IMG/VR virus record: IMGVR_UViG_3300021962_000708
Coordinates: 1 to 22,419 of that record
DNA length: 22,419 nt
Origin: a virus
Strand: one strand, 5' to 3'
Below the pieces are notes generated by a model. The model was not told the origin of the DNA. It saw only the letters and a program-made list of their open reading frames with translations, and did no database searches. A program made the translations under genes and the position numbers. Below are positions 1,679-21,577 of this stretch, one piece after another (position 1 is the stretch's first letter; each line of letters begins with the position of its first letter).

Positions 1679-3583
1679 ATGGCAGTCAACCTTTCACCTG
1701 TTTTCGGCGTTGCTGGGCAACTATTCGACAACAACGGCAATCCGCTGGCCGGTGGGAAGATTTTTACCTACTTGGCCGGGACGACCACGAACGCCACGAC
1801 CTACACCAGCAGCAACGGCAGCATTGCCCACAGCAACCCCATCATCTTGGACGGTGCTGGGCGTGTCCCGTCGGGCGAAATCTGGCTGACTGACGGCATC
1901 ACCTACAAGTTTGTGGTGCAAGATGCCGCCAACAACCTGATCGGCACTTACGACAACCTGACCGGCATCAACAGCAACTTTGTCGCGTTTACAAACCAGC
2001 AGGAAATCCAGACGGCCACGGCAGGTCAGACGGTCTTTAACTTGACCACCATGCAGTATCAGCCTGGCACGAACAGCCTGTCGGTGTTCGTTGATGGCGT
2101 GAACCAGTACGGCCCAGGCGCACAGTACGCCTACGTTGAAACGGATCAAGACACGGTGACTTTTGTGTCAGGTCTTCACGTTGGCGCGTCGGTGAAATTC
2201 ACCACGTCGCAGTTAAATAGCAGCGGTGCTGGCGATGCATCGCAAATTTCCTACACCGCGCCATTTGCTTTGTCTGTAACGACAAACGTTGAAGACAAAT
2301 TGGCGCAATACGTCAGCGTCAAGGACTTTGGCGCTGTCGGCGATGGCGTAGTTGATGACACCACGGCCATACAAAACGCGCTGACGGAATCTGCGGGTAA
2401 GACGGTATTTTTCCCGAATGGCGTGTACAACATCAGCAACATCATTTTTGTTGACAGCAACACGGCGATTTACGGATATGGCGCGACGCTGTTCTGTACC
2501 AACGCATCTGCTGGTGGAACTGGCGTCTACATCACAGACCCGACCTATCTGGTTGGTGTTGAAAACGTCACGATTTACGGCCTGAAAGTTGATGGAAACC
2601 GAGCCGGTAGAACGCCGCCTGGTGCTGGCGCGTTGTTCTATGTGTCATCTGGCAAAAATCACACTTTAGTTGATTGCGTTGCGGTTAATTCCACTATTGA
2701 CGGATTCCAGATTGCAGGAGACACCAGTTGGGCTGGTGGCGTCAATAAAAACACCAGAATGTACAACTGTGAAGCAGACAATTCCTATCGGAATGGCCTG
2801 TCAGTTGTTGGCACTGACAACTTTGTTGATTACGGCGGCAAGTACCACGACACCAACGGAACCAGCCCAGAAATTGGCGTAGACATTGAACCCAACGGCG
2901 CAACCAGCCGCAATTACGGTTTTGCGTTTTACGGAACGCACGTTTATGACAACGCCCTTCACGGCATTTCGGTAAACGGATCGTCTGGCACCAACACCAA
3001 AGGGTTGATGTCAGGAGTTGTGTCAACTGGCAACGGTGGATATGGTTTTCAATGTGACCAAGCTATGAGCAACGTGAGAATTCACGCGCCACAAGCCAGC
3101 AACAACACACTTGGATCGTTTGATACTAGCGGTTATGCCTACGATCAAGACAACTTAAGCGAGCGCACAATTTACAGCGCAAGAGTGCGTAAGAGTGTCG
3201 GCCAGAACGTGACATCTGCGACCTTTGTTGATGTGACCAGTACGACGGTGACATACACGCCAAGATACCCAAACTCTGTGACCAGGCTGCGGGTCAAAGG
3301 CAACTATTCGTTGATAAATTCTTCTGGTACCGTTGTGTCCGCCTCAATACAACTTATCAACACAGGGACATCTGCGGTTGTAGATGATTGTTCTCCCATC
3401 ATTCAGGTCAACAACAACGGGTCAAATGCCCTGCGCCAAGATGGCACATTCTTCATGGCTGGCCAAGAAAACAACGTCGGCGTGACGCCCGTCAGCTACA
3501 AAGTCCAAGCAAAATTGAACAGTGGAACGTCAATAGACATTGGCGGTGTTGAGGTTATTGCTGAAGAAGTCAGCGGGGGTTAA
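1679..3583 (+). CDS. Tailspike with head-binding-like N-terminus and pectate-lyase beta-helix
   Basis: This 634-residue protein has three visible parts. Residues 1-100 (GQLFDNNGNPLAGGKIFTYL, NPIILDGAGR, IWLTDG, YKFVV) resemble the P22-type tailspike head-binding domain. Residues about 101-195 (ATAGQTVF, NSLSVFVDGVNQ) match a beta module frequent in phage fibres. From residue 212, VSVKDFGAVGDGVVDDTTAIQ is the hallmark start of the Pectate_lyase_3 right-handed beta-helix, followed by Asn/Gly-rich coils to about residue 500 and a C-terminal beta domain. Such proteins bind and often cleave surface polysaccharide; the substrate cannot be told. GC falls sharply inside the gene (58% at 1861-1920, 38% at 2641-2700 by hand count), consistent with exchange of the receptor-binding part. 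The ribosome-binding site GAGGA lies in the end of the previous gene. Confidence 0.88.
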   Translation: MAVNLSPVFGVAGQLFDNNGNPLAGGKIFTYLAGTTTNATTYTSSNGSIAHSNPIILDGAGRVPSGEIWLTDGITYKFVVQDAANNLIGTYDNLTGINSNFVAFTNQQEIQTATAGQTVFNLTTMQYQPGTNSLSVFVDGVNQYGPGAQYAYVETDQDTVTFVSGLHVGASVKFTTSQLNSSGAGDASQISYTAPFALSVTTNVEDKLAQYVSVKDFGAVGDGVVDDTTAIQNALTESAGKTVFFPNGVYNISNIIFVDSNTAIYGYGATLFCTNASAGGTGVYITDPTYLVGVENVTIYGLKVDGNRAGRTPPGAGALFYVSSGKNHTLVDCVAVNSTIDGFQIAGDTSWAGGVNKNTRMYNCEADNSYRNGLSVVGTDNFVDYGGKYHDTNGTSPEIGVDIEPNGATSRNYGFAFYGTHVYDNALHGISVNGSSGTNTKGLMSGVVSTGNGGYGFQCDQAMSNVRIHAPQASNNTLGSFDTSGYAYDQDNLSERTIYSARVRKSVGQNVTSATFVDVTSTTVTYTPRYPNSVTRLRVKGNYSLINSSGTVVSASIQLINTGTSAVVDDCSPIIQVNNNGSNALRQDGTFFMAGQENNVGVTPVSYKVQAKLNSGTSIDIGGVEVIAEEVSGG

Positions 3584-7653: not shown

Positions 7654-8163
7654 ATGAACGCAGGAAGACCAGCCAATACGCCAGAAGTGTTGTGGAACAA
7701 AGTTGATGTAAGAGGGGAAGACGAATGTTGGCCATGGAAGGGTTTTAAGGAAAAGTCAGGATACGGGCGAACTTGGATCAACGATGTTGGCTACTACGCG
7801 CATCGGGTCATCTTCAGTTTGGCGAATCCGGGACAGATTGAATTGAGAGCGCCAGCGAATAAGCGGGCAACAGGGTTTTTGATGCACACCTGTGACAATC
7901 GAATCTGCTGCAACCCAGCCCATTTGCGCGTCGCAAGCATCAAGGCGAACAACTTAGATTGTTTGCAAAAGGGTCGCAAAAAGCTGCCGATGGGCGAGAA
8001 TCACCATAGGTCAGTTTTCAGCGATGTTGAGATTCAACAAGCATTGGAAATGCGGCAATCGGGACATTCGGCAAGGCAGATAGCGATGAAATTGAACAAA
8101 AAACGTGCAACCATTGAATCGCTGCTGCGCCGCCATCGGTTGCGTGAGAGTAAAGGGGCGTAA
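7654..8163 (+). CDS. Free-standing HNH homing-type endonuclease
   Basis: This 169-residue protein contains an HNH_3-like core: DECWPWKG and YAHRVIFSL near residues 25-55, then MHTCDNRICCNPAHL (about 75-89) followed by KANNLDCLQKGR. The first His lies in MHTC, and the Asn and second His in CCNPAHL. The C-terminal 45 residues (VEIQQALEMRQSGHSARQIAMKL) look like a helix-turn-helix used to recognise DNA. Such genes are selfish nickases or nucleases that copy themselves into related phages. It interrupts gp4 and gp10, which are normally adjacent, and it ends two bases before gp10. Nothing suggests that the flanking genes are damaged. Confidence 0.87.
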   Translation: MNAGRPANTPEVLWNKVDVRGEDECWPWKGFKEKSGYGRTWINDVGYYAHRVIFSLANPGQIELRAPANKRATGFLMHTCDNRICCNPAHLRVASIKANNLDCLQKGRKKLPMGENHHRSVFSDVEIQQALEMRQSGHSARQIAMKLNKKRATIESLLRRHRLRESKGA

Positions 8164-17557: not shown

Positions 17558-18187
17558 TCATTCCCCGATAATTTTCTTCAGTGCTGCAACCTTGGCGTCT
17601 ACTTCAGCCAAGAACTTAATAACCTCTGATTCCACGTCAGCCAGCCACTTATCGTCGCGCAAGACGCGGACAACAAACAGTTGGGCCTTGGCGGGCATCC
17701 GAGGGTCGAACACAACGTAGTCGCACCACGACCTGTCGGCGCAGCGCATCTGCCATTGCATTTGAGCGTAGTACTTAGATTCGACCGGGTTTTCGGCAAG
17801 CCAGCATTCCAAAGCGGTCTTGCTGTCGGGGCATTTGATCTCGACCATCCCATCATCGCCTACAAGGCCATCAGGGGACGCGCCAGCCGCTGCAATGGTC
17901 GGGTGAGGGATAAACCCCACCTCATCCACCATAACGCCCCTGGAGGCCTCATAAGCGGCCCTGGCAAACGGTTCCTGGTCGATGCCCCACTGCATGGCCG
18001 CGTTGGTGTAGGAATCGGCCTTGGTGCCGGTGACCCTCTCCAGCACCAGTTGGGTCATATAGTTGCCGCGGTCGGCCCCGTAGCCCGTCTTTGTCTTGGC
18101 CAAGACTTTGTACAGGCTGCTGGCGGTCACTTTGCCCAGGCGGGCGGTAAACCAATCGTCGGTGCGTTGTTCCATCATTTCAATCAC
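17558..18187 (-). CDS. YqaJ/lambda-exonuclease-type recombination nuclease
   Basis: This 209-residue PD-(D/E)XK nuclease has all family marks: EQRTDDWFTARLGKVTAS at the start; WGIDQEPFARAAYE (67-80); the catalytic set ASPDGLVGDDGMVEIKCP with Asp106, Glu116 and Lys118; and YYAQMQWQM (139-147), where the Gln and Met follow the lambda-exo pattern. It degrades the 5' strand at DNA ends to give single strands for the ERF annealase two genes upstream. GTG at 18187 is taken as start because it overlaps the preceding stop (GTGA) and AGGAG lies eight bases upstream. ATG at 18178 or 18175 is possible but badly spaced. Confidence 0.88.
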   Translation of the reverse strand: MIEMMEQRTDDWFTARLGKVTASSLYKVLAKTKTGYGADRGNYMTQLVLERVTGTKADSYTNAAMQWGIDQEPFARAAYEASRGVMVDEVGFIPHPTIAAAGASPDGLVGDDGMVEIKCPDSKTALECWLAENPVESKYYAQMQWQMRCADRSWCDYVVFDPRMPAKAQLFVVRVLRDDKWLADVESEVIKFLAEVDAKVAALKKIIGE

Positions 18188-18435: not shown

Positions 18436-18653
18436 GCTTCTACTCCTAACTGTTCTGCAATTCTTTCAATGGCATCAACACAACTGATGTTCAAGGCTTC
18501 ATCAATCAGACGTAAAGATTGGTCAATTATTTCGTCATAAGTCCCTGGGTCGGCCTCCTTGATCGCTTCAAGCGTAAATTTGGCATCGTTTAATGCGTCC
18601 AGGTCTGCACTGTTGACGCGCTGCAAGATTTCGATGTCTTCTTTATTTGCCAT
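18432..18653 (-). CDS. Unknown 73-residue helical early phage protein
   Basis: ATG at 18653 is chosen because AGGAG sits seven bases upstream; a longer reading to 18701 has no such site and lies inside the ERF gene. The product is acidic and helical (DIEILQRVNSADLDALNDAKF, DEIIDQSLRLIDEALN, AIERIAEQLG) with no known motif. It overlaps the end of the ERF gene by 11 bases, and its own stop overlaps the next start by four, so it belongs to the recombination operon. Its function is unknown. Confidence 0.65.
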   Translation of the reverse strand: MANKEDIEILQRVNSADLDALNDAKFTLEAIKEADPGTYDEIIDQSLRLIDEALNISCVDAIERIAEQLGVEA

Positions 18654-19233
18654 TTGCTTTCTCCTTTTTGGCGCGTTCAATGCGGGCTTTCTTGGCGGCA
18701 ATCACCCGTGCCTGTAGCGTCTGATTGCCCTGGCAAGCCTCATAAGCTGCGGAATAGGCTTTGGCCAGGTCATCGCTGCTGGCGCTGGCCTCAATCGCTG
18801 ACAGGTGGTCGGTAATGTCAGGCGTTGGGGGTGCGGGCGGGGCTGTAGGGCGACGGCTGGCCGCGTTGGCGTCGTCGTCTTCTGGTGCGATACCGCAAGC
18901 GGCCATCAGGCTGTAGCGGCGGGCATAGGTCAGCGCCGAGCCGTAACCCTGGGGGTCTTGCTTGGCTGCGGGGACGTGCAGCTGTCCGCAGTTGATGACT
19001 TCACCCGATTCGTGGATGAAGACGGTTTCCACGATCACGCCATCGTCGCAGGGGCTGACGCGCTGGGTCAGTGCAATCCCGTTGTTGTTGAGGGCATCTA
19101 CCACCGCCTCAACGCAAGCGGCCAGGTCGGCGTAGCGTGATTTGAAGTGGGGGTTAGTGCTGGACTTCAGCGCGGGGCCAAATTCCTTCTGGGCCTTGAC
19201 CAAGGCCGCGGCTACTTTGTTGAACGTGTTCAT
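18643..19233 (-). CDS. erf: ERF-family single-strand annealing recombinase
   Basis: This 196-residue protein has the ERF core: NKVAAALVKAQKEFGPALK at the N-terminus, NPHFKSRYADLAACVEAV (27-44), and the family signature KQDPQGYGSALTYARRYSL followed by MAACGIAPEDDD. A Pro/Ala linker separates a helical C-terminal domain (TDHLSAIEASASSDDLAKAY...). ERF proteins anneal complementary single strands and circularise P22-like genomes; here the partner exonuclease and SSB-like gene lie downstream. ATG 19233 is preferred over ATG 19287 because AGGAG stands nine bases upstream and the preceding gene stops four bases away. Confidence 0.92.
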   Translation of the reverse strand: MNTFNKVAAALVKAQKEFGPALKSSTNPHFKSRYADLAACVEAVVDALNNNGIALTQRVSPCDDGVIVETVFIHESGEVINCGQLHVPAAKQDPQGYGSALTYARRYSLMAACGIAPEDDDANAASRRPTAPPAPPTPDITDHLSAIEASASSDDLAKAYSAAYEACQGNQTLQARVIAAKKARIERAKKEKANGK

Positions 19234-19237
19234 GGTT

Positions 19238-19432
19238 TCATACTCCTGTTGTCGTTGCACTGTTTCGTAAAACTGTTGGTGACTCATTTTTTTCTGCCAA
19301 AGGTTTCCAGCCGAACCGACGCCACGTTTTGGTGATGTCGGTAAACGCGGCGGGCGTGTACTTAAACCGGCTGTCCAAGATGTTGGGACGTACCGGCTGC
19401 GGTGGTGCGGGGACGGCGCGAAGCTGTTTCAT
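19238..19432 (-). CDS. Unknown 64-residue conserved early phage protein
   Basis: ATG 19432 is supported by a four-base overlap (ATGA) with the upstream gene. The product contains NILDSRFKYTPAAFTDITKTW followed by RRFGWKPLAE, a pattern (LDxRFKYTPA...T) that I recognise from short uncharacterised proteins of phage early operons. A Pro-rich start (RAVPAPPQPVRP) and a Ser/Thr-rich end lie either side. Its final codons contain AGGAG, the ribosome-binding site for ERF. Its function is unknown. Confidence 0.65.
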   Translation of the reverse strand: MKQLRAVPAPPQPVRPNILDSRFKYTPAAFTDITKTWRRFGWKPLAEKNESPTVLRNSATTTGV

Positions 19433-19882: not shown

Positions 19883-20133
19883 GCTGTCACCCCGCTGGCG
19901 TTCAATTGACCTTCCATGACCGCAAACAAAACGCCTTTGGCGCGGTTCAGAGTTTTACGAGCGCCTTCAACATCGCCGTAGGCCATTTGTTCCTGGGCGT
20001 CAGACATGAGGCCAGCAACGATCATGTTAGCGCCGTTGAACTTGTAGGTGAAGGAATCGGTAACGCTGTCCAGGAATTGCTGGAAGTTGCAACCATACAT
20101 TTGTTGGTCGCGTGAGGCTTGATTTGCATTCAT
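19879..20133 (-). CDS. Unknown 84-residue early phage protein
   Basis: This is a mostly helical acidic protein: SRDQQMYGCNFQQFLDSVTD, then ANMIVAGLMSDAQEQMAYGD and EGARKTLNRAKGVLFAVMEG. No family is recognised. It is the first gene after the operator-controlled promoter at 20176-20205. AAGGAG lies eight to nine bases before ATG 20133, at the end of the conserved leader shared with two other early genes. The position suggests strong early expression under the Cro-like regulator. Confidence 0.68.
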   Translation of the reverse strand: MNANQASRDQQMYGCNFQQFLDSVTDSFTYKFNGANMIVAGLMSDAQEQMAYGDVEGARKTLNRAKGVLFAVMEGQLNASGVTA

Positions 20134-20205
20134 CTTGATTTCTCCTTAATAGACCGCTTGCTGCGGCATGGTTGCATTGTAAGCCCGCTTAACACGGGCT
20201 GTCAA
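20134..20205 (-). promoter_or_regulatory. Operator-controlled early promoter P1 with mini-ORF leader
   Basis: On the minus strand, TTGACA (20205-20200) and TACAAT (20181-20176) are separated by 18 bases, close to a sigma-70 consensus. The palindrome TAAGC-GG-GCTTA (20180-20191) fills the spacer end and overlaps the -10 by two bases. Six bases after the -10 comes an ATG (20169), the predicted +1, opening a seven-codon frame (MPQQAVY, stop at 20146). A short CCGC/GCGG hairpin precedes AAGGAG. It drives the genes from 20133 leftwards. Confidence 0.82.
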
Positions 20206-20209
20206 GTGT

Positions 20210-20476
20210 TTACATCCGCACGGCCCGAGCGCAAGCAGCGTCCCAGTAGGGGCTGTCGGGGAAGATGCGAACCCGACCCTTTTCAAAGTAGTCGGTCATC
20301 ATGTCGGTGTTGTTTTCGTAGGGGGCCAGGTCGCGGAACACGCGGCCCAGTGCGCCTGTGTAGTCTCTGGCGTAGATCGTCACGCAGTCACGACCATCAA
20401 CCAGGGTGCCGCGGTGGTACCAGACCTTGGCTTTTTCGACGTTGTTGGTAACGTAGAACTTCATCATCTTGACCAT
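20210..20476 (-). CDS. Unknown 88-residue early phage protein
   Basis: The start is ATG 20476, eight bases after AAGGAG; two further ATGs follow within five codons. The product (MMKFYVTNNVEKAKVWYHRG, TIYARDYTGALGRVFRDLAPYE, FEKGRVRIFPDSPYW) seems a compact alpha/beta protein, rich in Tyr and Arg, ending CARAVRM. No family is recognised. It is a single-gene unit: its own operator-promoter lies upstream (20515-20544), and another promoter of the same type starts right after its stop. Such individually controlled first early genes often act on the host, but nothing in the sequence shows this. Confidence 0.68.
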   Translation of the reverse strand: MVKMMKFYVTNNVEKAKVWYHRGTLVDGRDCVTIYARDYTGALGRVFRDLAPYENNTDMMTDYFEKGRVRIFPDSPYWDAACARAVRM

Positions 20477-20544
20477 CTTGATTCTCCTTAAAAGACCCGT
20501 TAGGGCATGGTTTGATTGTAAGCCCGCTTTACACCGGCTGTCAA
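20477..20544 (-). promoter_or_regulatory. Operator-controlled early promoter P2 with two-codon leader
   Basis: The elements are TTGACA (20544-20539), an 18-base spacer and TACAAT (20520-20515). The operator core, read on the plus strand TAAGC-CC-GCTTT (20519-20530), overlaps the -10 by two bases and has one mismatch to the P1 palindrome. Six bases after the -10, ATG CCC TAA (20508-20500) makes a two-codon mini-ORF at the predicted transcript start. A CCC/GGG hairpin and TCTTTTAAGGAG follow. It drives the 88-residue gene. Confidence 0.82.
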
Positions 20545-20547
20545 GGA

Positions 20548-20730
20548 TTACGCGAAAGAAATTACGAAGCCCGATGTTTCGAGCATTTCAACGTAACCGG
20601 GAACGCGAGACTTGCGAATCTGGACAGAAACGCCGCCGTAGATCGCCTCTTTGGCAGATTCGGTAAGAGCCACGAAAGTGACCGTGGTTTCGTTGAAGTC
20701 AGAGGGAAGGATTTGGAAGTCAGCAGACAT
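20548..20730 (-). CDS. Unknown 60-residue early phage protein, first gene leftwards
   Basis: The product starts MSADFQILPSDFNETTVTFVAL and ends ETSGFVISFA. It is predicted to be mostly beta strand with one short helix (TESAKEAIY); GGVSVQIRKSRVPGYVEML is the middle. No motif is known to me. It is the first gene leftwards of the regulatory hub, with AAGGAG before ATG 20730 and its own operator-promoter (20778-20806). Its stop is three bases from the -35 of promoter P2, so the next gene is separately started. Confidence 0.68.
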   Translation of the reverse strand: MSADFQILPSDFNETTVTFVALTESAKEAIYGGVSVQIRKSRVPGYVEMLETSGFVISFA

Positions 20731-20806
20731 TTGGAACTCCTTAAAAGACCGCTTGCAATTCGCTACGGCATGACTGAATGTTAAGCTGGCTTACGCACCA
20801 CGTCAA
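20731..20806 (-). promoter_or_regulatory. Divergent leftward early promoter P3 with operator O1
   Basis: The elements are TTGACG (20806-20801), a 17-base spacer and TAACAT (20783-20778). Operator O1, TAAGC-TG-GCTTA on the plus strand (20782-20793), is a perfect 5-bp inverted repeat with a two-base centre and overlaps the -10 by two bases. Six bases downstream lies ATG CCG TAG (20771-20763), again at the predicted +1. A CCG/CGG stem and TCTTTTAAGGAG lead into the 60-residue gene. The -35 and -10 hexamers equal those of the rightward promoter. Confidence 0.82.
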
Positions 20807-20817
20807 CAACTATTTGT

Positions 20818-20829
20818 AAAGCCCACTTA
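20818..20829. promoter_or_regulatory. Central operator copy O2
   Basis: AAAGC-CC-ACTTA matches 8 of 10 arm bases of the early-promoter operator TAAGC-NN-GCTTA. It lies between the two divergent promoters, outside either core, inside a wider TGTAA-N7-TTACA inverted repeat (20815-20831). It could allow cooperative binding between O1 and O3. Confidence 0.55.
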
Positions 20830-20850
20830 CATTAGTCAGGTATTGGTGGC

Positions 20851-20885
20851 TTGACGGCAACAGCAAGTTGGCTTAACATCGCACG
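20851..20885 (+). promoter_or_regulatory. Rightward promoter P4 with operator O3, leaderless start
   Basis: The elements are TTGACG (20851-20856), a 17-base spacer and TAACAT (20874-20879). Operator O3, CAAGT-TG-GCTTA (20864-20875), overlaps the -10 by two bases exactly as in the leftward promoters. Only six bases (CGCACG) separate the -10 from the ATG of the Cro-like gene, so transcription should begin at or beside the start codon. There is no Shine-Dalgarno sequence. Confidence 0.82.
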
Positions 20886-21047
20886 ATGGACAAGAAACAA
20901 GCCATTGAAAAAGCGGGGTCGGCCATGGCGCTGGCCAAGTTGTTGGGCATCACGCGCCAGGCCATCAGCCAGTGGGGCGACGCCTTGCCCGCGGCCCGTT
21001 TGTGGCAGCTGAAAGCCCTGCGGCCCAAATGGTTCAAGGGCGGTTGA
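20886..21047 (+). CDS. Cro-like helix-turn-helix regulator
   Basis: This 53-residue protein is of the Cro/YdaS type. MDKKQAIEKAGSAMALAKLL leads into a helix-turn-helix (SAMALAKLLGITRQAISQWG, residues 12-31), then LPAARLWQLKALRPKWFKGG. The pattern SxxALAxxLGITRQAxxQWGxxxP is that of short phage Cro proteins. It has no oligomerisation or protease domain, so it is not a CI-type repressor. Transcription from promoter P4 would give a leaderless mRNA, with operator O3 in its own promoter, implying autoregulation. It is the likely ligand of all five operator copies (inference). Its TGA stop is embedded in the TTGACA -35 of the next promoter. Confidence 0.85.
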   Translation: MDKKQAIEKAGSAMALAKLLGITRQAISQWGDALPAARLWQLKALRPKWFKGG

Positions 21048-21073
21048 CAAGGAATTTTTTGTTGATGTATGAT
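21044..21073 (+). promoter_or_regulatory. Operator-free sigma-70-like promoter P5 for a small RNA
   Basis: TTGACA (21044-21049) and TATGAT (21068-21073) are 18 bases apart, both within one base of consensus. The spacer is T-rich and has no TAAGC/GCTTA operator, unlike the four neighbouring promoters, so it may be constitutive. The -35 overlaps the end of the Cro-like gene. The predicted start is near 21080, at the foot of the first hairpin of the RNA. Confidence 0.75.
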
Positions 21074-21079
21074 CCAAAC

Positions 21080-21241
21080 CGTCTGGAGTGGCATCCAGGC
21101 GAAGAAAGTAGGCTTAGAACCCCTCAGTTCGCTGTGGTGGGTCTTGACAAGCATCAAGCGAGGCTTTTGCCTACTTTCAATCGCCTTGTTGCTGCTCACG
21201 CCAAGAGCCAAGATCCACCAGAACGAATTGAGGGGTTTTTT
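21080..21241 (+). ncRNA. Compact structured small RNA candidate (about 160 nt) with pseudoknot
   Basis: Elements by hand pairing: a 5' hairpin (21081-21086 with 21095-21100); a single strand GAAAGTAGGC (21104-21113); and a long hairpin of 27 positions with two mismatches and two G-U pairs (21120-21146 with 21209-21235), capped by a 62-base loop. The loop contains GCCTACTTTC (21169-21178), a perfect 10-bp complement of the 5' strand, which would form a pseudoknot; the competing local hairpin AGGC-TTTT-GCCT shares its bases. Six Ts follow the long stem. A plus-strand frame from ATG 21065 runs through it, but its codons (AGA, AGG, CTT, CCA) are unlike the neighbouring genes. No known RNA family is recognised. 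Immunity, antitermination or antisense control are all possible. Confidence 0.72.
21209..21241 (+). terminator. Rho-independent terminator ending the small RNA
   Basis: The 3' arm of the 27-bp hairpin ends TGAGGGG, directly followed by TTTTTT (21236-21241). The closing pairs at the foot of the stem are four G-C. This is a strong intrinsic terminator for transcription from P4 and P5. Rightward transcription into the replication genes would need readthrough or antitermination, or a further promoter not recognised here. Confidence 0.72.
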
Positions 21242-21308
21242 GCTTTTGCAGACCGTACTCCGCACGAAGTAGGGGCCGCAAGTGGGGCTGCTCGGAAGGA
21301 AACCGCGA

Positions 21309-21461: not shown

Positions 21462-21577
21462 TCTTTGGGTGAAATTTATTGATTTGTGAGACACGGCTAG
21501 GTTTGGATTGATCCCCAGACTGAAAGGCGAACCTCCCGCTTGCCGCTGTTTCTTTACTGGAGGATTGGAGAAAAGCA

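Follow-up and report, generated by a model that had tools for sequence, protein, structure and literature searches.

In this study, we find that the early promoters of a lambdoid-type phage place an ATG exactly where transcription is predicted to start, and we consider it probable that these are Cro-type, operator-controlled promoters whose transcripts begin on AUG, giving a leaderless cro mRNA in one direction and, in the other, mRNAs at whose 5′ ends a terminal uAUG and a hairpin act. A bolder proposition, that the early transcripts start with a 5′-terminal AUG by design, as the message of a leaderless repressor and elsewhere as part of a 5′ cassette used repeatedly (an AUG cap with hairpin, U-run and Shine-Dalgarno sequence, SD) which docks or parks 70S ribosomes and tunes or protects the early mRNAs, is offered as a speculation that we regard as rather unlikely in its full form.

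In the window, that is, the whole 22,419-nt stretch of IMG/VR record IMGVR_UViG_3300021962_000708 that was analysed (22.4 kb, both strands), the pattern TTGACN-N15-20-TANNNT-N6-ATG has exactly four matches, all in the early control region, whereas 300 dinucleotide shuffles yield 0.04 matches on average and never more than 2. These are the leftward promoters P1, P2, and P3 and the rightward promoter P4 (Table 1), and the positions and layout given in a preliminary description of this region, four promoters on one template with ATG at the predicted +1, are confirmed. That description also stressed that a single ruler recurs in four places. The spacing is real, but P1 and P2 are near-identical (35/39 positions), P3 and P4 being far less alike (22/38), and since P1 and P2 are copies the four promoters are not independent cases. 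The operator TGTNAAGCNNGCTTACA, with at most three mismatches, has five matches in the window, one in each promoter and an extra one which was absent from the earlier list; this count alone is weakly unusual, in that 7 of 100 shuffles reach five, yet all five matches fall within 700 bases. The overlap of operator and −10 by exactly two bases, as previously described, holds for the TAAGCNNGCTTA core, but with the whole 17-mer the overlap is four or five bases. The palindromes within P1–P4 are putative Cro operators, and judging from the sequence the P22-Cro-like repressor most likely binds all five copies, four of which lie inside sigma-70-type promoters. Each of the four promoters would start in the classical geometry of a −10, six bases, and then an A, the initiating A being the A of the AUG.

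Table 1. Promoters, operators, predicted leaders, and genes of the early control region (window positions)
Feature	Position	Strand	Description
P1	20205-20167	−	TTGACA-18-TACAAT-GCAACC-ATG; −35 20205-20200; −10 20181-20176; ATG 20169-20167 at predicted +1
P2	20544-20506	−	TTGACA-18-TACAAT-CAAACC-ATG; −35 20544-20539; −10 20520-20515; ATG 20508-20506 at predicted +1
P3	20806-20769	−	TTGACG-17-TAACAT-TCAGTC-ATG; −35 20806-20801; −10 20783-20778; ATG 20771-20769 at predicted +1
P4	20851-20888	+	TTGACG-17-TAACAT-CGCACG-ATG; −35 20851-20856; −10 20874-20879; ATG 20886-20888, the cro start codon
Putative operator in P1	20178-20194	−	TGTTAAGCGGGCTTACA, 0 mismatches to TGTNAAGCNNGCTTACA
Putative operator in P2	20517-20533	−	TGTAAAGCGGGCTTACA, 0 mismatches to TGTNAAGCNNGCTTACA
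Putative operator in P3	20779-20795		1 mismatch to TGTNAAGCNNGCTTACA
Putative operator in P4	20862-20878		Degenerate, 3 mismatches to TGTNAAGCNNGCTTACA
Fifth putative operator	20815-20831		TGTAAAGCCCACTTACA, 1 mismatch; between P3 and P4, outside any promoter
Predicted P1 leader	20134-20169	−	uORF MPQQAVY* 20169-20146; hairpin +3 to +17, 20167-20153; SD AAGGAG 20147-20142; gene ATG 20133
Predicted P2 leader	20477-20508	−	AUG CCC UAA 20508-20500; hairpin GCCC-UAAC-GGGU 20506-20495; SD AAGGAG 20489-20484; gene ATG 20476
Predicted P3 leader	20731-20771	−	AUG CCG UAG 20771-20763; hairpin +3 to +24, 20769-20748; SD AAGGAG 20742-20737; gene ATG 20730
cro	20886-21047	+	53-aa P22-Cro-like repressor, predicted leaderless (Pfam P22_Cro profile, upstream comparison)
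Gene under P3	20548-20730	−	60-aa protein
Gene under P2	20210-20476	−	88-aa protein, phrog_18717
Gene under P1	19879-20133	−	84-aa protein
Erf-like annealing protein	18643-19287		Further leftward
YqaJ exonuclease	17558-18187		Further leftward

These promoters and genes belong to the early control region of a lambdoid-type phage, and they are arranged in the manner of lambdoid early regions. Neither an S24 repressor nor a Pfam integrase was found in 24 related IMG/VR records (28–37 kb, L082–L141), which may be incomplete and in which a non-S24 repressor would escape; these phages apparently carry a Cro-like repressor without CI or integrase. The nearest named match is a Limnohabitans phage from freshwater, which is only a lead as to a freshwater origin. 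Limnohabitans phage DC33 was considered as a named isolate carrying these cassettes and rejected: its match to the window covers only 118 bases, and none of the cassettes occurs in the 12 kb of it that were read. Its 39-kb record (PQ492659.1) bears the taxonomy line Inoviridae, which is at odds with its size. Among the structural genes of the window, a 169-aa ORF (7654-8163, + strand) resembles an HNH-type endonuclease by eye.

At P1–P3, the ATG at the predicted +1 is not the gene start. The real starts lie behind AAGGAG, at +37 (P1), +33 (P2), and +42 (P3) of the predicted transcripts, and the leaders share one layout: 5′-AU, a GCC(C/G) hairpin, a U-rich stretch, AAGGAG, and the gene ATG. The AUG would therefore cap a short leader before genes that are themselves normally SD-initiated, an AUG at the predicted 5′ end combined with a downstream SD-led gene being the arrangement of 5′-terminal uAUG mRNAs. 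In predicted folds, exactly two 5′ bases are left unpaired, +2 among them, and a short stem of 4–5 pairs begins at +3 and encloses a loop of 4 to 16 bases. Among 44 distinct leaders, +3 is a G opposite U in 42, +4 and +5 form C-G pairs in all 44, and at +6 the pair takes two forms, C-G (34 leaders) and G-C (10 leaders); because complementarity at +6 was a collection criterion, only the two states of this pair count, and not how often it is paired. These two states support, but do not prove, a real RNA hairpin. Folding energies of single leaders were no better than those of shuffles, no Rfam family matched the leaders in the promoter region, and the predicted folds of the cro mRNA contain no such 5′ hairpin. 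A second leader class occurs at the P3 position (e.g., L085, L101, L113, and L261), and consists of GGGAACCGTAGTGATTGATAACGCCC, a loop, and GGGTC; its hairpin lies near +17 and it has no AUG at +1.

The preliminary description had proposed that there is constraint on the +1 ATG itself, and this proposal withstands a comparison of the −10-to-ATG distance among relatives. In relatives fetched by protein similarity, a promoter-plus-operator scan which required GCT before the −10 but not ATG, and which included the cro promoters, placed ATG at offset 6 in 120 of 142 distinct sites, with at most nine sites at any other offset. A scan for the leader hairpin, again with no ATG required and with sites fetched by an ATG-containing pattern left out, gave offset 6 in 121 of 143 distinct promoters. 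When the 5′-terminal-hairpin leaders were clustered at 80% identity (n = 49), +1 was A in 49, +2 was U in 46, and +3 was G in 48; position −1 was C or T in all of them, and −6, −5, and −3 carried 0.2–0.5 bit only. At 90% identity, AUG stood at +1 in 72 of 76 clusters. Taken together, AUG occupies +1 to +3 in about 95% of the 5′-hairpin leaders from relatives, none selected on AUG, although such counts overstate independence because the relatives share ancestry. For several of the database scans, the counts are those among the matches listed. In the IMG/VR pattern scan for the GAAA-loop hairpin alone, AUG was present in 14/16 operator-linked leaders; in the UNAC-loop scan, among the matches listed, 27/43 operator-linked contexts have AUG at their end, and the non-AUG contexts are mostly of the class whose hairpin lies near +17. 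The −10-to-ATG distance is thus almost invariant in the hairpin leaders, and for cro it is invariant within the clade. The 5′-terminal-hairpin leaders that lack AUG still have A at +1 (reading ACG, AAG, AAU, or ACU) and keep both hairpin and SD, which indicates that the AUG is favoured, not essential.

It is possible, though in our judgement somewhat doubtful, that mRNA protection alone accounts for the leftward leaders. The 5′-terminal hairpin at P1–P3 would then be the object of selection, slowing attack by RppH and RNase E since it leaves only two unpaired bases, and the AUG would be a by-product, made up of the A at the start site, a U at +2, and a G that belongs to the stem. Both RppH and RNase E require a single-stranded 5′ end, and E. 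coli mRNAs are known to be stabilized by stem-loops at the 5′ end (PMC3997798). The G opposite U at +3, the two states of the +6 pair, and the retention of the hairpin in AUG-less leaders all agree with this explanation. However, +2 is unpaired and is nevertheless U in 46 of the 49 clusters, so that the hairpin alone does not explain the conserved U; moreover, the related class carries its hairpin away from the 5′ end, and the cro mRNA shows no such hairpin in its predicted folds. The conserved unpaired U argues for the AUG itself and the AUG-less leaders speak for the hairpin, and both elements may be active.

A leftward AUG without function, carried along by a preference for starting on an A after a pyrimidine and by duplication of the cassette, seems unlikely to us. 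The invariable A at +1 after C or T in all 49 clusters is what a favoured start site would give, and P1 and P2 are indeed copies; yet U at +2 and G at +3 are kept at 94–98% across clusters while the six preceding bases drift.

The short uORFs themselves could matter, in that AUG-CCN-stop would yield a Met-Pro dipeptide and park or drop a ribosome at the 5′ end, for which the bar minigenes of lambda provide a precedent. Indeed, 46 of 65 short uORFs read AUG-CCN-stop (MP-stop), and distinct AUG-bearing leaders with long loops have a stop at codon 3 in 25 of 33, with all three stop codons in use. The other 8/33, however, have CAG, CAA, or CGA at codon 3 and no stop, tetraloop leaders encode MPETVF or run on, the uORF of P1 in the window has seven codons, and other leaders encode unrelated peptides or read past the gene start. 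As the uORFs are conserved neither in length nor in peptide or stop, a peptide or a strict AUG-Pro-stop minigene was rejected as the main role, and we find the minigene reading very improbable.

In our preferred reading, the 5′ AUG and the 5′-terminal hairpin of P1–P3 most likely act at the 5′ end of the mRNA, through ribosome docking and/or protection from decay, and peptide synthesis would not be the purpose of the AUG. At P1–P3, ribosomes may load at the 5′ end. Two observations weigh against this reading as well: since the G of the AUG is also the first base of the hairpin, the hairpin might interfere with leaderless initiation at that AUG, and in one class at the P3 position this hairpin lies near +17 and there is no AUG at +1.

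At P4, the AUG is the start codon of cro, and we therefore propose that Cro is made from a leaderless mRNA. The product matches the Pfam P22_Cro family (48.1 bits, cut-off 30.2), and since the frame has no ATG, GTG, or TTG upstream, translation could begin no earlier than the ATG at 20886. Exactly 6 nt separate the −10 from the cro ATG in the window and in 57 of 62 distinct upstream regions of cro relatives, and the six intervening bases occur in 25 different versions among the relatives. The other five regions are from distant relatives, three with 7 nt, one with 5, and one without a clear −10. No SD (GGAG, GAGG, or AGGA, 4–18 nt upstream) was found in any of the 62 regions. A length that is kept while its sequence drifts, together with the lack of an SD, predicts a leaderless cro mRNA; by this comparison of sequences, a leaderless mRNA with its AUG at the predicted transcription start is well supported. 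Sigma-70 transcription would start at the A of the cro start codon, and leaderless initiation would follow, probably by 70S ribosomes. Leaderless initiation was among the explanations first suggested for all four promoters, and it is well supported at P4 but falls at P1–P3, where genes start elsewhere, so that the original interpretation as a whole is partly supported. That cro relies on a promoter other than P4, with translation from a longer transcript that has a leader, is most improbable given 62 upstream regions without an SD and a promoter conserved at a fixed distance in 57 of them.

The sequence downstream of cro holds further features. At 21044-21247 (+ strand), a promoter-like TTGACA-N18-TATGAT without an operator overlaps the end of cro and is followed by a 168-nt stretch of very high predicted stability (−85 kcal/mol, z −7.9) with a U-run at its end. 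L082, L083, L102, and L108 have comparable stretches downstream of cro, in which the stem sequence is changed, and the stretch in the window, which has no Rfam match, is a candidate phage small RNA. Matches to int-alpA RNA (RF02996) are also found downstream of cro, in the window at 21490-21563 (+ strand, 24.8 bits) and in L087 at 3170-3245 (37.4 bits, the sole match above the curated 35.8), as well as in L133, L118, L276, L096, L113, L102, and L082.

The promoter geometry has a well-known counterpart. Lambda PR reads GATAAT-GGTTGC-ATGTACTAAGGAGG, with ATG-TAC-TAA-GGAGG following the six bases, so that, as at P1–P4, a −10 and six bases precede an ATG at +1 (position 38023 of the lambda record, the known PR start). 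The ruler is the same, and the geometry is thus not new; searching the literature for the leader string of lambda PR gave no hits. The lambda PR/cro transcript has a short uORF, AUG UAC UAA, which runs into GGAGG and the cro ATG, and lambda cro is SD-led and without a 5′ hairpin, whereas in the window it is the leftward genes that carry uAUG leaders, and cro is predicted to be leaderless. What appears to be new is the repetition of the geometry through one regulon, the hairpin cassette, and a predicted leaderless cro throughout a clade. The cI mRNA of lambda is leaderless too. The cro genes of P22 and phage 21 encode members of the same Pfam Cro family as the window cro, but they are preceded by GGAG and lack a −10 at six bases from the ATG, which rules out leaderless cro as a general trait of P22_Cro proteins. 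A parallel is the telomere phage PY54, in which 5′ RACE showed that the cro and cI mRNAs begin at the A of the AUG start codon (PMC4488713), as predicted here for cro. PY54 Cro binds a single operator and apparently does not repress its own synthesis, in contrast to the window, where the cro promoter itself contains a putative operator; the arrangement is kept here across a clade.

For the leftward leaders, there are precedents in E. coli, where SD-led mRNAs with a 5′-terminal uAUG bind 70S ribosomes through it and expression of the downstream gene can change (Beck, Fleming, & Janssen, 2016; PMC4965119). Like P1–P3, these mRNAs have a 5′-terminal AUG before a short SD leader; they belong, however, to scattered host genes, and the effect on the downstream gene is variable there. 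The window differs from them in repeating one cassette within a phage regulon, with the hairpin directly after the AUG. The stabilizing 5′ stem-loops of the ompA and papA type (PMC3997798) similarly leave few unpaired bases at the 5′ end, but at P1–P3 a short stem of 4–5 pairs adjoins an AUG, and this combination recurs in several early units. The 5′-terminal AUGs on SD-led mRNAs are known from those scattered E. coli genes, and here they are repeated within one regulon and kept across dozens of related phage loci, in which natural AUG-less, hairpin-keeping variants form a comparative set for setting 5′-end ribosome loading against mRNA protection, and to which the clade-wide conserved repressor gene, predicted to be leaderless, adds.
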